Source: a virus
Direction: 5' to 3' (one strand)
DNA length: 23,315 nt
Virus record (IMG/VR): IMGVR_UViG_3300042294_002429
Location: 1-23,315 of that record
The translations under genes and the position numbers were made by a program. The notes under the pieces are model-generated. The model saw nothing but the letters and a program-made list of their open reading frames with translations, was not told the DNA's origin and ran no database searches. Below, piece by piece: positions 16,622-21,928 of this stretch. Each line of letters opens with the position of its first letter. Positions within the stretch are counted from its first letter, which is position 1.

Positions 16622-18457
16622 TTATGAGATAGCCGCTGCTCGTGAAACTGTTTCCGAAGACAGAGAAACTGAAACAGAATCAGAATAACCGCGATTGATT
16701 CGGATAATTCTGTTCTCTTTTACATATAAGTCTTGGTTTTGTGGTTGAACAGTTACGGTGATTCCGTAAACAATTCCTTCTGCAATCTGTGGAACAAACT
16801 TTGAATTGAGTCTGATTATTCCTGTAGAATACTCTATTGTGCCTACGCCTTTTAGAACCACAGTTTTGGCTCCACTAGTTTCGTACTTGACCACATTAAG
16901 AACCCCGTAGCCGTCGTCTTCTAGTGTGCAGTTGTAAACAGTGGTTCCGTCATAGTTTTTGTGGGGGAACATGTTAGAAGACAAAATGGAAATGTGTCCG
17001 TCGTGTGGATGATACAGCGAGTTTCCGAAATCAATCACTAGTCCTTTAGAAGAAACAATTCGCCCCACCTCTACTGTTTTTCGCAATTTAACCGTGGTTT
17101 GGTTGCTCAAAATGGACGGGTGTAGATCACTTATTCCTTTGATAAAAGCAGAGTAATAAAAATTAGAACCAAACGAATTCAATTGGATATTAGAATACGA
17201 AAACGCATACGCAACCGCAAGTGCTTTAAGTGTTCCTGCACTAATGTTCAGGGCAGACGGATTGTAGGTAATCTTACTGTCAACAACCAAATCCAAATAA
17301 TCGGTGTCTACTATTTCAGGAATAATGCTGACCACAGACGCATTGTTACGCAAATTTCTGACTAGACTTTCTTTTTCGCTTGTGCTTAATGCCTGTCCCG
17401 AGGTGGGGCGAATAGCAATAAACACTTTGCCGTACTGTGGTGGCGTAACAGTTTCTCCTCCGTACACATACACAGACGCAGCATCGGGATAGTACCGATT
17501 AACTGCGGTAATGTAATCGTTTTCGGTTACTGCACGACTCTGTGACTTGTAGTATTTGGGAGCCATGAACTTGATACGAACGGATGTTTCTGCGTCTCCA
17601 CCACCAGCCGATTCAGAAACAGTTTCAACGGTGCCAAGTCCACTAACAGCAGAAGTAAAATCGCTTATTCCATTAGCCGCTGCTCCATTGGTTTCAAGAT
17701 ATTCAATTGAAATCAGGTTTCCAGTTTCAGGTTCTTGTCCCAAGAAACCGTCACCAAAATACAGTTCATACAGTCCTTTTTCCTTTTCTTGCAGGAAAAA
17801 CACCTTTGAGGTTGGAGTCAGATTTACATAAGACGCAGCCTCACTCCACACACTAGACGAGCCTGTTGAATCAGTCACAGAAGCCTGAACGCGAACACGG
17901 ATGGTTGTGGTATCAACCTTATCGTTAGGAATAAGCAAAACCGAAAGGTCTTTACGATTGCGGTCGTACACATAACTAACACGACGCAAACTGCCCTCGT
18001 AAACATCTACCTCTTCAAAACTGTTGGTTGTTGTGTCTGCGTAGGCATTTTCCAATAGTATAAACTTGTATTGACTGCCTTCGGGATCGGTTCCCGTAAA
18101 TTCAGTTCCACGAGCCAAGTAAGTGTCTGTGGTTGAAGATCCGCTTGAAATAGGAACGGTTAGAGTAGCCTTTGCTGCACGAGCCGACTGTGGAGTGTAG
18201 CCCAACTGCTTGGCATGAGACGCAATCGACGGACGCAGTACTGCACTGTCCAAGAACATTTCGTTGGCTACCATGTTGGCATAGAACCCTTGATAGTGGG
18301 TGTTGTATGCCATGACATCCAAAATGGTGCTCAATACAGAGCCATTGAAATTATAGTCTTTGAGTGTGTCTTGCGATTCGAGAAAAGCCTTTAGAGAAGC
18401 CTTTGCCTCGCTAAAATCTAGTCCAACCACATTCAGAGCGTTAGCGTTTGTTGCCAT
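16622..18457 (-). CDS. 6: baseplate wedge subunit gp6
   Basis: At 611 residues it is close to T4 gp6 (660). The N-terminal 100 residues are typical of the cyanophage-like gp6 family: LDFSEAKASLKAFLESQDTL at 13-32, LSTILDVMAYNTHYQGFYAN at 42-61, NEMFLDSAVLRPSIASHAKQ at 65-84, and a LGYTP turn. A middle block from about 285 (SVRIKFMAPKYYKSQSRAVT, then ENDYITAVNRYYPDAASVYV) is the baseplate J-like part shared with gpJ-type wedge proteins. In T4, gp6 dimers form the ring that links the six wedges around the hub and drive the switch from hexagon to star before sheath contraction. The start overlaps the gp25 stop in TGATG, and the ribosome site AAGGG lies within gene 25. The next gene begins 3 bases after the stop. 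Confident. Confidence 0.95.
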   Translation of the reverse strand: MATNANALNVVGLDFSEAKASLKAFLESQDTLKDYNFNGSVLSTILDVMAYNTHYQGFYANMVANEMFLDSAVLRPSIASHAKQLGYTPQSARAAKATLTVPISSGSSTTDTYLARGTEFTGTDPEGSQYKFILLENAYADTTTNSFEEVDVYEGSLRRVSYVYDRNRKDLSVLLIPNDKVDTTTIRVRVQASVTDSTGSSSVWSEAASYVNLTPTSKVFFLQEKEKGLYELYFGDGFLGQEPETGNLISIEYLETNGAAANGISDFTSAVSGLGTVETVSESAGGGDAETSVRIKFMAPKYYKSQSRAVTENDYITAVNRYYPDAASVYVYGGETVTPPQYGKVFIAIRPTSGQALSTSEKESLVRNLRNNASVVSIIPEIVDTDYLDLVVDSKITYNPSALNISAGTLKALAVAYAFSYSNIQLNSFGSNFYYSAFIKGISDLHPSILSNQTTVKLRKTVEVGRIVSSKGLVIDFGNSLYHPHDGHISILSSNMFPHKNYDGTTVYNCTLEDDGYGVLNVVKYETSGAKTVVLKGVGTIEYSTGIIRLNSKFVPQIAEGIVYGITVTVQPQNQDLYVKENRIIRINRGYSDSVSVSLSSETVSRAAAIS

Positions 18458-18867
18458 CAGCGTACCCTTTCAAGCAGTGTTGTTACTCTGTCTACCGCTC
18501 CAATGGACTGTACGGTATACTCTACCGCAACTTGATACTCGTTTGAATCAGGATTGGACACCACATCCACTATTATATTGTTCACTCGCGGCTCGTTCTT
18601 ACGAATGGTTTCCAAGATTCTGTCGCGTATTTCAAAAGCGGTAATTGAATCCACAGGCTCAAACAGCAGCGGACGAAGCGAGGCTCCAATCTGTGGCTGA
18701 AACAGCCGTTCACCAAAAGCCGTAGACAGCAGGTTTTGAACCGCTACCTTGATGGCTTTGGTGTCTTTGGTTGCAACCACATCGCTGGTTTTGGGATTTC
18801 GGGTAAACAGCGGGTCTATATCGGTATAGACAGGCTCTTGTGGTGTTGAATTTATTTTAAGAGGCAT
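18457..18867 (-). CDS. 25: baseplate wedge subunit gp25 (GPW/gp25 family)
   Basis: At 136 residues it matches T4 gp25 (132). It carries the GPW_gp25 signature: an N-terminal DIDPLFTRNPKTSDV, AIKVAVQNLLSTAFGERLFQ, PQIGASLRPLLFEPVD, and then FEIRDRILETIRKNEPRV, including the conserved E-P-R-(V/I). The fold is related to lysozyme but has no hydrolase role in tails. gp25 joins gp6 and gp53 at the inner wedge and provides the first anchor for the sheath. Its start overlaps the end of the GAF-like membrane protein gene by 11 bases, with a weak GGGTAA ribosome site inside that gene, so translation may depend on the upstream gene. In T4, gene 25 lies elsewhere, but in many other T4-like phages and in R-type systems it stands next to gene 6 or its counterpart. 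Confident. Confidence 0.95.
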   Translation of the reverse strand: MPLKINSTPQEPVYTDIDPLFTRNPKTSDVVATKDTKAIKVAVQNLLSTAFGERLFQPQIGASLRPLLFEPVDSITAFEIRDRILETIRKNEPRVNNIIVDVVSNPDSNEYQVAVEYTVQSIGAVDRVTTLLERVR

Positions 18868-19522
18868 GGCGTTTACCCATAGTTAGGTGTGAATTTATTG
18901 TTTTAGTGGACACCGAAACCACCTCTGAAAGTGAACTTTCGGGTATCCCTTCGTCGTGAACTGCGTCCAAATCGCCAATATCACACCAATGGCAGCACAC
19001 AAATCCCATAGGAGTCAGCCCGTCTTCGCATTTCAAGGGGCTAACCGCAAAGAACAGTACATTATTTATTTCAAGTCCGTAACGAAACGAGCACTGGGGC
19101 AGATCAGAAACCTTGATTATTTGATTAGACCGATTTTCTAAAATATCAACCATTTCTCGGTAACGGTTCAGTAATACATCTTGTGATTCCAACAACATGC
19201 CCTGAACCCCTGTACCACAAGACTCGTGGGTAACAGAAAAGCGTTTAATGGAACTGCCGTCAGCAAATCGCCCACCGTTGTGGAACTGAAACACCATTGC
19301 CCGAGACGCACGAACAAGCAGACGCAATTCTGTCAGAGTTTCGTGAACTTGGCTGTGTGCTTGTGCCACTTTTTGCTCTTTCTTTATTTCAAGCAAAGCA
19401 GTAAACTTTTTCTTCTTTAGCATAGTCCACAACCCAACAACAATACCAACGCCAAACACACCAATAATCTCACCTATGGAGTACACCAAATCTGAATACG
19501 ATGAGATGGAAGACGCTATCAT
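18857..19522 (-). CDS. predicted membrane-anchored protein with GAF-like domain, 221 residues
   Basis: Residues about 13-35 form one hydrophobic membrane-spanning segment (IGEIIGVFGVGIVVGLW) followed at once by KKKK, predicting the N-terminus outside and the bulk in the cytoplasm. Residues about 40-70 are charged and helical (LLEIKKEQKVAQAHSQVHET), likely a stalk or coiled coil. Residues about 70-185 look like a GAF-type sensor fold: ASRAMVFQFHNGGRF at 72-86, a central helix, and a closing MGFVCCHWCDIGDLD at 172-186. Six cysteines (102, 144, 165, 176, 177, 180), three in CCHWC, could bind metal or respond to redox. The gene overlaps its upstream neighbour in ATGA and gene 25 by 11 bases, so it is an integral part of the baseplate operon. 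No known baseplate component has this layout. It could act at the host inner membrane late in infection or in lysis timing, or be carried in the virion; none of these is shown. The GAF call is by eye. Confidence 0.7.
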   Translation of the reverse strand: MIASSISSYSDLVYSIGEIIGVFGVGIVVGLWTMLKKKKFTALLEIKKEQKVAQAHSQVHETLTELRLLVRASRAMVFQFHNGGRFADGSSIKRFSVTHESCGTGVQGMLLESQDVLLNRYREMVDILENRSNQIIKVSDLPQCSFRYGLEINNVLFFAVSPLKCEDGLTPMGFVCCHWCDIGDLDAVHDEGIPESSLSEVVSVSTKTINSHLTMGKRHAS

Positions 19523-20349
19523 CTGGTTGTTGTGCTCCCTGAACTTGCGAATGGAGACGCTACCGATGCGTTTGCTGCACCCGCTAACTGCTGAAACTCT
19601 GGTGTTAGCAATCCTCCCTGATTGACCGCAACACTCATTTTGTTACACGGATCGTTTGCTTCTCCGATTAGATTGCTGAAAAAATTGATCTGGCTATATT
19701 TTGATATTGCACCTGCTGCTTGACTAATCATGTTTACACTATCACCTGTAACTTTGTTTAGTGCTCCTGTTGCGTCGTTTATTTTTGAAGTTATTCCCTC
19801 TAGTGCGGTATTGAATTCTTTTGCAGCGTTTTCCATACCAGCACCAGACGGATTTCTTGAAAAATTATCTATGATGCGATCCAAATCAACCTGAACACCA
19901 CCAGCAACACTAATTGCGTTTTGACCGTTTCCAGTCAGTACGCCAATAGAAACGGTAACATCAAGTCCCTCAATCCCAAGAGCACACCCCAAATTTGCGT
20001 AAAAATTCATGCTACCAATCACGCCCATAAGAGTTTGAGGGTTGCTTAATCTATCTGCTTGGGATTTAAAAGCATTAACTGCGCTTTGCATATTGGTTGT
20101 GTCGGCTATAATTTTATTGAGTCTGTTAACATCAACACCGCTGTTTCCAAGAGCAGAGCCAACAGTTCCTATTGTTGGTGTTTGAATAGCAGTAGCAAGA
20201 GCACCGAGTCTTCCAATAGACTGACCAAGAGCACTACTAACGCCTCCAGCCTGTCCGCCTGTAGTGTTTTGCACAAAAGACTTGCCCGATTGGCTATTGA
20301 CCAAATCTTTTTGTTCGTCTGTTAGTTTTTGTTTACATGGACACGCCAT
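19519..20349 (-). CDS. hypothetical hub-associated structural protein, 276 residues, CPC N-terminus
   Basis: I do not recognise a named family. The protein starts MACPCKQKLTDEQKD and then becomes rich in Gly, Ala, Ser, Asn and Ile with few aromatic residues. There are helical stretches at about 72-105 (VDVNRLNKIIADTTNMQSAV) and 155-225 (LDRIIDNFSRN, GMENAAKEFNTALEGITSKI), and a glycine-rich middle at 125-152. Cysteines are at 3, 5, 122 and 235. It has no signal peptide or clear membrane segment. The composition resembles tail-interior proteins such as hub or tape-measure-related proteins, and the gene lies immediately after the PAAR tip, which places it with the central hub set. The start is 3 bases after the PAAR gene stop, and its stop overlaps the next ATG as ATGA. 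It may be a hub component or a packed or injected protein; function unknown. Confidence 0.75.
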   Translation of the reverse strand: MACPCKQKLTDEQKDLVNSQSGKSFVQNTTGGQAGGVSSALGQSIGRLGALATAIQTPTIGTVGSALGNSGVDVNRLNKIIADTTNMQSAVNAFKSQADRLSNPQTLMGVIGSMNFYANLGCALGIEGLDVTVSIGVLTGNGQNAISVAGGVQVDLDRIIDNFSRNPSGAGMENAAKEFNTALEGITSKINDATGALNKVTGDSVNMISQAAGAISKYSQINFFSNLIGEANDPCNKMSVAVNQGGLLTPEFQQLAGAANASVASPFASSGSTTTR

Positions 20350-20613: not shown

Positions 20614-20834
20614 TAGATCAGTCCTCCGTCTATAATACTTGGATTTGGCGAAGGATCAACAGTCAGAGACATGAGAGTAAATCCTGATTCTGTTTCGCTT
20701 GGCAAATACCCATAAGATTGGGTAACTCCACATATCCAAAACTTACCTTCACGAGACACCACATCTCCGTAAGCGTATACACGATATACGGAACTGTTTG
20801 GCTCGTACTTGCGGTGGTCGCCACGATAGTTCAT
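20613..20834 (-). CDS. small protein between spike and PAAR tip, 73 residues
   Basis: There is no family I can name with certainty. The core, YRVYAYGDVVSREGKFWICG at about 17-36 followed by a Tyr/Pro-rich loop, resembles the short aromatic beta hairpins seen in small chitin-binding-like modules and in many small phage virion proteins (pattern Y-x-x-G-D-V-V-x-x-x-G-K-x-(W/Y)-x-C). The C-terminus is Pro/Asn rich (DPSPNPSIIDGGLI). The gene overlaps the spike gene by ATGA and the PAAR gene by TAATG, so all three are coupled. Placement between spike and tip suggests a small spike-associated or tail-tip part, or a small adhesive module; this is inference. The overlaps at both ends support it as a real gene. 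Confidence 0.7.
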   Translation of the reverse strand: MNYRGDHRKYEPNSSVYRVYAYGDVVSREGKFWICGVTQSYGYLPSETESGFTLMSLTVDPSPNPSIIDGGLI

Positions 20835-21928
20835 TGCAACTGCACCTTGCTTGGGCGAACAGACGGCTGACCAGAGTTCAACTCAATACGGCTACCCACC
20901 ACAGCCACAGAGCCATCAGATATGAATTCCACAGTCTTGCCCGAGAACGCAATACTATCAGCAGCAAAAAATTCCATCTGTTTGCCTGAAGCACGGAACT
21001 TGCCTTCGCATTGCAGATTTACTTCAGCCTTTGCAAAAATATTAATGTTGCCGTCTATTTGAATATTGCTGCCGTTGCCGTTGACTGTAAGGTTGACTGG
21101 CCCATCAACCACGACATTAAGTCCTTCTTTGCCACCAATATACACCTTTTTGTTTCCCAAACATATTTCGTAATCGTCACCCACGATTTTCTGAACTCGG
21201 GTTCCATCAGGATTATTTGTCCACCCGTTTCCAACCTCTGTGAAAGTGCCTGATGTGTGATACTCGTGGATGCGTTCTGCTCCAGGGGTATCGTCATATT
21301 CTTTTACATGACCGCTTTCGGTATACAGTACATGATTTTTTGGATACACGGCATTGTATGGGGTTTGTGGCTCGCTCCATTGGCTCTTACCGTCTTTGAT
21401 TCCAGGAGCACTTTGAACATTTTGTTTGACTGTTCTTGCCCGTCTTTCTGCGACAGTTCCTTGCCCATTATTTTCTCCATTGTTTCTAGCAAGTCTGTTT
21501 GTGTCGGCTTCACCAACAACAGACACGCCAACAGGAAACACTCCATTGTTCACATCTTCGGCTTTTGCAGGATAGATTCCGCTAGGATCATCAAATCCTT
21601 TAGATGTATCAGCGTTTGCTTGTGGCACACCACCAAAAGATCCCATCATTACAGGCTCTTGTGCGTCGTCTCCGTCTCTAAAGAATCCAAACACATGAGA
21701 GCCGTTCAGGAGTCCTGTGGGAGACTGTCCAATACCAGACAGAGCAGCACTTGTAATTGGCTGCATAGGATACGCCCACGGCAGGGCTGCGGTAGGCAAC
21801 TCTACTTTGTTGTCGCTATGAAATCCAAATATGCGAACTCGGCAGCGTCCAAGATACAACGGATCAGCGTTGTCCTCAACGACACCGTGCCACCACACAA
21901 ATCCTTCTCGTCCTGAAAAGCCTTTCAT
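20831..21928 (-). CDS. 5: baseplate central spike protein, gp5-like, without lysozyme domain
   Basis: Residues about 8-102 form the gp5 or VgrG-type OB fold (FVWWHGVVEDNADPLYLGRC, RVRIFGFHSDNKVELP, PWAYPMQP, GSHVFGFFRDGDDAQEPVMM). Residues 105-190 are a polar linker. From 198 the sequence has the spike signature LYTESGHVKEYDDTPGAERI and HEYHTSGTFTEVG, then a repetitive beta needle (about 245-350) with alternating Val, Ile, Gly and Asn. T4 gp5 has 575 residues with a lysozyme domain between OB fold and needle. Here that region is too short and shows no lysozyme motif, so this spike punctures without digesting peptidoglycan by itself. It sits on the gp27-like hub and carries the PAAR tip encoded two genes on. 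The start overlaps the hub gene stop as TAATG, with GGGGG about 5 bases upstream. Confident. Confidence 0.92.
   Translation of the reverse strand: MKGFSGREGFVWWHGVVEDNADPLYLGRCRVRIFGFHSDNKVELPTAALPWAYPMQPITSAALSGIGQSPTGLLNGSHVFGFFRDGDDAQEPVMMGSFGGVPQANADTSKGFDDPSGIYPAKAEDVNNGVFPVGVSVVGEADTNRLARNNGENNGQGTVAERRARTVKQNVQSAPGIKDGKSQWSEPQTPYNAVYPKNHVLYTESGHVKEYDDTPGAERIHEYHTSGTFTEVGNGWTNNPDGTRVQKIVGDDYEICLGNKKVYIGGKEGLNVVVDGPVNLTVNGNGSNIQIDGNINIFAKAEVNLQCEGKFRASGKQMEFFAADSIAFSGKTVEFISDGSVAVVGSRIELNSGQPSVRPSKVQLQ

Follow-up and report, generated by a model that had tools for sequence, protein, structure and literature searches.

A stretch of viral DNA of 23,315 nucleotides (positions 1 to 23,315 of IMG/VR virus record IMGVR_UViG_3300042294_002429; the window in what follows) carries, within a T4-like baseplate operon, a gene whose product combines a single N-terminal transmembrane (TM) segment with a domain modeled as a GAF fold. 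Distant phage relatives of this protein, denoted here TM-GAF, stand at the head of lysis cassettes, and the same fold is found in the globular domain of the T4 holin T; on this basis we tentatively favor, at a probability just short of even, the reading that TM-GAF is a membrane protein of lysis timing, either holin-like or a regulator of a holin, in which the GAF domain is regulatory. It would then be a lysis gene in an uncultured T4-like clade for which none had been recognized. A first-pass annotation of the window had described a membrane-anchored GAF-like protein made together with tail parts, and had suggested that it might bind a small ligand at the host inner membrane, affect lysis or superinfection, or be delivered with the tail. 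The observation is confirmed here and the interpretation partly supported, lysis being the only functional guess to have gained evidence, both from the relatives in lysis cassettes and from the fold shared with T.

Gene and Operon Context

The features discussed below are collected in Table 1. A length of 221 residues, an 11-base overlap with gene 25 and an ATGA overlap with the upstream gene, as originally annotated, all fit the open reading frame given there (the overlaps lie at 18857-18867 and, over 4 bases, at 19519-19522), but the range listed at the time, 18968-19522, is too short, comprising 185 codons only and missing 111 bases (37 codons at the 3' end, stop included). Downstream of TM-GAF lie gp25 and then gp6, and farther upstream of the DUF7217-like gene are genes for a PAAR protein, a 73-aa product, a gp5 OB-domain protein and a tail protein. 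In the gp5-like protein (20831-21928) Pfam finds the OB domain and no lysozyme domain, a difference from T4 gp5.

Table 1. Positions of TM-GAF, its parts and its operon neighbors in the window, and of two candidate lysis genes in the related genome G001
Feature	Position	Strand	Basis or remark
TM-GAF gene	18857..19522	minus	ORF; 221 aa plus stop, ATG start
DUF7217-like gene, upstream	19519..20349	minus	Pfam PF23854, E = 1.6e-4, under the family cut-off
gp25 baseplate wedge gene, downstream	18457..18867	minus	PF04965, E = 4e-13; phrog_261, E = 5e-42
N-terminal membrane segment, residues 12-34 (about)	19421..19489	minus	hydropathy in 61/61 members
KKKK flank, residues 36-39	19406..19417	minus	charge pattern, same sense in 61/61
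Helical stalk ("bridge" helix), residues 40-72	19307..19405	minus	AlphaFold2 model (helix 4-70) and alignment
GAF-like domain, residues 73-218	18869..19306	minus	AlphaFold2 and Foldseek
FHNGG motif, residues 80-84, strand 1	19271..19285	minus	alignment
MGFVCCHWC block, residues 172-180 (MGF 172-174), last strand	18983..19009	minus	alignment
3-TM protein, 145 aa	G001 93349-93786	minus	
Lipoprotein with second TM segment, 101 aa	G001 93034-93339	minus	directly after the 3-TM gene

TM-GAF homologues occur in at least 152 IMG/VR stretches, 80 of which were retrieved for study. With gp25 alone as the query, chosen so that the synteny count would not be circular, each of the 80 best loci (80/80) has TM-GAF as the gene immediately before gp25. 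Of 61 distinct loci, 58 retain the 4-base ATGA overlap and all 61 have a distance to gp25 between -11 and +6 bases, and the order DUF7217, TM-GAF, gp25, gp6 is constant in the loci examined, contig ends excepted. An alignment of 61 sequences (60 distinct homologues) contains 40 invariant positions, and dN/dS values of 0.05-0.17 show that the gene is under purifying selection. Sequence change is faster in the DUF7217-like gene than in most other genes of the operon (dN/dS up to 0.27), and its identities are often 28-35% where TM-GAF holds 50-65%.

Profile searches find no TM-GAF in T4, S-PM2, Mosig or Melnitz, where the same gp25/gp6 core is present, and cellular genomes, bacterial and archaeal, yielded no copy when scanned, so that TM-GAF appears to be among the core genes of a single uncultured T4-like clade. 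Conserved synteny beside gene 25, proposed at first pass as a check, thus holds within this clade and does not extend to those four phages. As for a baseplate structural protein, the gene is encoded in the baseplate operon, and it might be argued from the unbroken position upstream of gp25 and the nearly constant ATGA overlap that the product is an accessory of the virion or of baseplate assembly, tethering baseplates to the inner membrane while they assemble, or being delivered there at ejection. We regard this as quite improbable: phages with the same gp25/gp6 core do without the gene, homologues in phages LE1 and P12024S lie beside cell-wall hydrolases (see below) and we know of no baseplate precedent for either a GAF fold or the layout of a T holin. 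Nothing was found in favor of delivery with the tail.

Membrane Anchor, Stalk and GAF-like Domain

The one membrane segment and the stalk that had been proposed both hold up, in hydropathy across the family and in the modeled helix (Table 1). Residues E18, G26 and G30 of the segment are invariant in 61 sequences, and H56, H60, E61, T64, E65 and R67 are invariant in the stalk. The flanks of the segment carry mean net charges of -1.2 on the N side and +4.4 on the C side; in 61 of 61 sequences the N side has a net charge of zero or less and the 15 residues past the segment one of at least +3. By the positive-inside rule a positively charged flank stays in the cytoplasm, and since the charge pattern has the same sense throughout the family the C-terminal GAF-like domain is predicted to be cytoplasmic (N-out/C-in).

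An AlphaFold2 model built from 23 sequences has a mean pLDDT of 75.7 and is clearly the best of five, the other four lying lower at 55-62. Its best Foldseek matches in the PDB are GAF domains (E = 1.4e-6 to 1e-4, probability 1.00) and, of 120 matches with E ≤ 0.001, every one of the 50 listed is a GAF domain or a GAF-containing sensor protein, with modest query-normalized TM-scores of 0.3-0.5. Among viral models (BFVD) the top matches are phage TM-GAF proteins, several of them named as GAF-domain proteins, and next come T-type holins of Proteus phages Stubb (E = 5.5e-4) and phiP4-3 (1.8e-3) and of Serratia phage PS2 (2.3e-3), each with probability 1.00, beyond which the matches are noise from about 0.07. 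The Pfam GAF family (PF01590) does not match the window protein and is matched by 2 of 23 members, with E = 0.038 at best; the relative P12024S_12 reaches 0.009, under the cut-off, and searches of Pfam, NCBIfam and PDB sequences with the window protein gave no usable match. The GAF-like domain seen at first pass is therefore supported by the modeled fold, not by sequence. GAF folds are common, so that sharing the fold is no proof of a shared role.

Invariant residues cluster within the GAF-like domain, and no ligand is implied by them. The HNG of the FHNGG motif is present also in the relatives from LE1, P12024S, cr127_1 and Mel-JY01, and in the MGFVCCHWC block G173, F174, C177, W179 and C180 are invariant in 61 sequences, with C176 kept in at least 95%.

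Phage Relatives and Their Lysis Cassettes

The window protein matches phrog_14038 over the stalk and first strands (E = 1.3e-6), and 23 of 23 members match both phrog_14038 and phrog_30125; for Leptospira LE1-0048 the match to the former has E = 1e-17, and Microcystis LMM01 gp021 matches the latter along its whole length. A profile of the proteins from LE1, LMM01, P12024S, P12024S-like, cr127_1 and Mel-JY01 finds the window family at 9e-24 and a family from Bacteroides phages at 1.5e-12, both E-values referring to a database size set at 40,000. A direct hhalign comparison of the window and Bacteroides-phage families is not significant, and their kinship rests on these intermediate sequences. 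A protein of nearly matching length, Polaribacter P12002L gp25, was ruled out as a homologue by its sequence.

Bacteroides-phage-type (BS-TP1-type) loci present a consistent arrangement in which TM-GAF is followed by a hydrolase of the GH108, M15 (M15_3) or Amidase_3 type and by a lipoprotein or TM spanin-like gene. A hydrolase lies within the next one to three genes in 21 of 22 such loci, many of which are near-identical, so that they amount to about eight distinct cassettes and not to 22 independent events; the exception, L149, has a spanin-like gene only before the contig ends. Hydrolase types were confirmed by Pfam in L147, L161, L164 and L165 and judged in the others by similar N-terminal sequences. 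Across L147-L168 the endolysin type swaps (GH108, M15_3, Amidase_3) behind one TM-GAF gene, and one of the spanin-like genes bears DUF6808. In L146 a small 2-TM protein and an Amidase_2 follow TM-GAF. Farther afield, the homologue of Leptospira phage LE1 overlaps the M23 peptidase gene directly after it, whose product matches an endolysin family, and in Nonlabens phage P12024S an M15 peptidase comes directly after the homologue. A constant first gene ahead of hydrolases that are themselves unrelated is the pattern expected of a holin or a gene controlling lysis.

Not all homologues are so placed, the neighbors being a tail ring gene in cr127_1, capsid and PhoH genes in Mel-JY01 and thymidylate synthase in LMM01. 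These loci speak against a lysis role, as do the position of the clade's own gene in a baseplate operon with no adjoining endolysin, the separate pair of candidate lysis genes described below, a charge topology opposite to that of T and the lack of a sequence link to T. Homologues outside lysis cassettes agree with a membrane-bound cytoplasmic GAF sensor unrelated to lysis, acting for example in superinfection exclusion, membrane counter-defense or late control of host metabolism, for which the predicted cytoplasmic domain, the strongly invariant FHNGG, THES and CCHWC motifs and the candidate separate holin/spanin pair could also be cited. Such a sensor would leave the repeated position at the head of the cassette, before unrelated endolysin types, hard to explain, and no link to any defense or exclusion gene was found; we consider it a fairly unlikely alternative.

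Other Candidate Lysis Genes in the Clade

G001, the contig of locus L029 (147,410 bases), is probably a complete genome of the clade since it has a 100-base terminal repeat. Its region 93034-93786 (13034-13786 of L140) encodes a 3-TM protein followed by a lipoprotein (Table 1), in a layout that makes a holin/unimolecular spanin (u-spanin) pair plausible. The 3-TM protein is conserved in 4 of 10 contigs (the others are mostly fragments) and has homologues in Verrucomicrobia phage P8625. Near the pair, at L140 11364-12131, lies a lipoprotein-type trypsin-like serine protease (PF13365, E = 2e-14) that is also present in G002. A search for five endolysin families (PF00959, PF08291, PF01510, PF05838 and PF07486) in 10 relatives, G001 and nine others, recognized no endolysin in the clade; the GH108 search was validated.

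If the separate pair of G001 is real, TM-GAF would be a regulator and not the pore, and the presence of this pair in a probably complete relative favors regulation over pore formation. In the lysis-timing reading that we prefer, TM-GAF would be a late protein anchored in the inner membrane and built like T: a short N-terminus is followed by one TM helix, in which E18 and G26-xxx-G30 are invariant and which probably self-associates, then by a long bridge helix and a regulatory domain of GAF fold. Unlike that of T, this domain would, by the charges around the TM helix, lie on the cytoplasmic side. The gene sits within the baseplate operon, joined to its neighbors by overlapping start and stop codons, and the protein would therefore build up at the pace of tail assembly. 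Its action might be that of a holin; no less likely is that of a regulator, by which a separate holin would be held or released when the GAF domain binds a ligand or partner. Lysis timing may, if this is correct, be set by a sensor-type domain, and TM-GAF would become a marker gene in searches for holins or holin regulators in phages that have none annotated.

Comparison with Known Systems

The GAF domains of bacterial sensors and phytochromes (PF01590) are alike in fold to that of the window protein, which differs from them in having no kinase or cyclase output domain and in falling below Pfam detection. Its operon partners are those of the T4-type baseplate neighborhood (gp5, PAAR, gp25, gp6), which in T4, S-PM2, Mosig and Melnitz holds no counterpart of TM-GAF. 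Closer are the phrog_14038/phrog_30125 proteins (LE1-0048, LMM01 gp021, P12024S_12, BS-TP1 gp129), similar in length, with an N-terminal membrane segment, a GAF-like domain and in most cases the HNG motif; these are encoded in lysis cassettes or other modules, whereas in the window clade the gene stands between DUF7217 and gp25, and the CCHWC block is peculiar to this clade.

The T4 holin T shares with the window protein a single N-terminal TM segment, a bridge helix and a globular domain of GAF fold. A model of the T family (PF11031) from 11 sequences superimposes on the T crystal structures (PDB 6PXE) with an rmsd of 2.6-2.9, and its next matches, set apart from these structures by a wide E-value gap, are GAF domains (E = 1e-5, probability 1.00). 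GAF is thus the closest fold to the T soluble domain outside its own structures (L121, 1722-2375; model m925252a65e6d). In the literature covered we found no paper linking the T domain to GAF, although the authors of the T structure (Krieger 2020) may have noted it. The elements of T run in the order long helix, two strands, helix, short strand, two strands, helix, and the window protein keeps this order while adding helices on either side of its last pair of strands.

We do not assign the window protein to the T holin family, on several grounds. A PF11031 search finds no T match in 10 relatives, the same search detecting T in two T4-like controls, and hhalign and hmmsearch comparisons of the window family with T are negative. 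T is N-in/C-out, opposite to the topology predicted from charge in 61 of 61 window-family sequences, and has an N-terminal amphipathic helix for which the approximately 11 residues before the TM segment leave no room.

That helix is reported to be essential for the pore (PMC12162936), and its absence weighs against the sub-case of the lysis-timing reading in which TM-GAF is itself the pore-forming holin, T-like with inverted topology. The T-like layout and the invariant E18 and G26xxxG30 of the TM helix would suit such a pore, as would the occupancy of the holin slot in L152, L153 and L161, where an adjoining spanin-like gene on the same strand encodes the only other membrane protein seen nearby. 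Other small membrane proteins are present in the cassettes of L146, L162 and L164, and G001 has its 3-TM protein; we judge a pore-forming role unlikely.

The domain structure of T has been called unique among holins, with a globular domain that has a regulatory role and is dispensable for the pore (PMC12162936), and the TM-GAF family of lysis cassettes would, if the lysis-timing reading is correct, provide T with relatives. T and the TM-GAF proteins could share an ancestor, or the GAF fold may have been recruited twice. It is conceivable, though on balance doubtful, that both belong to an unrecognized phage class of single-TM lysis proteins with GAF-fold regulatory domains, in which T would be one divergent branch with inverted topology and the proteins of the window clade another, reading the lysis signal in the cytoplasm and made in step with tail assembly.
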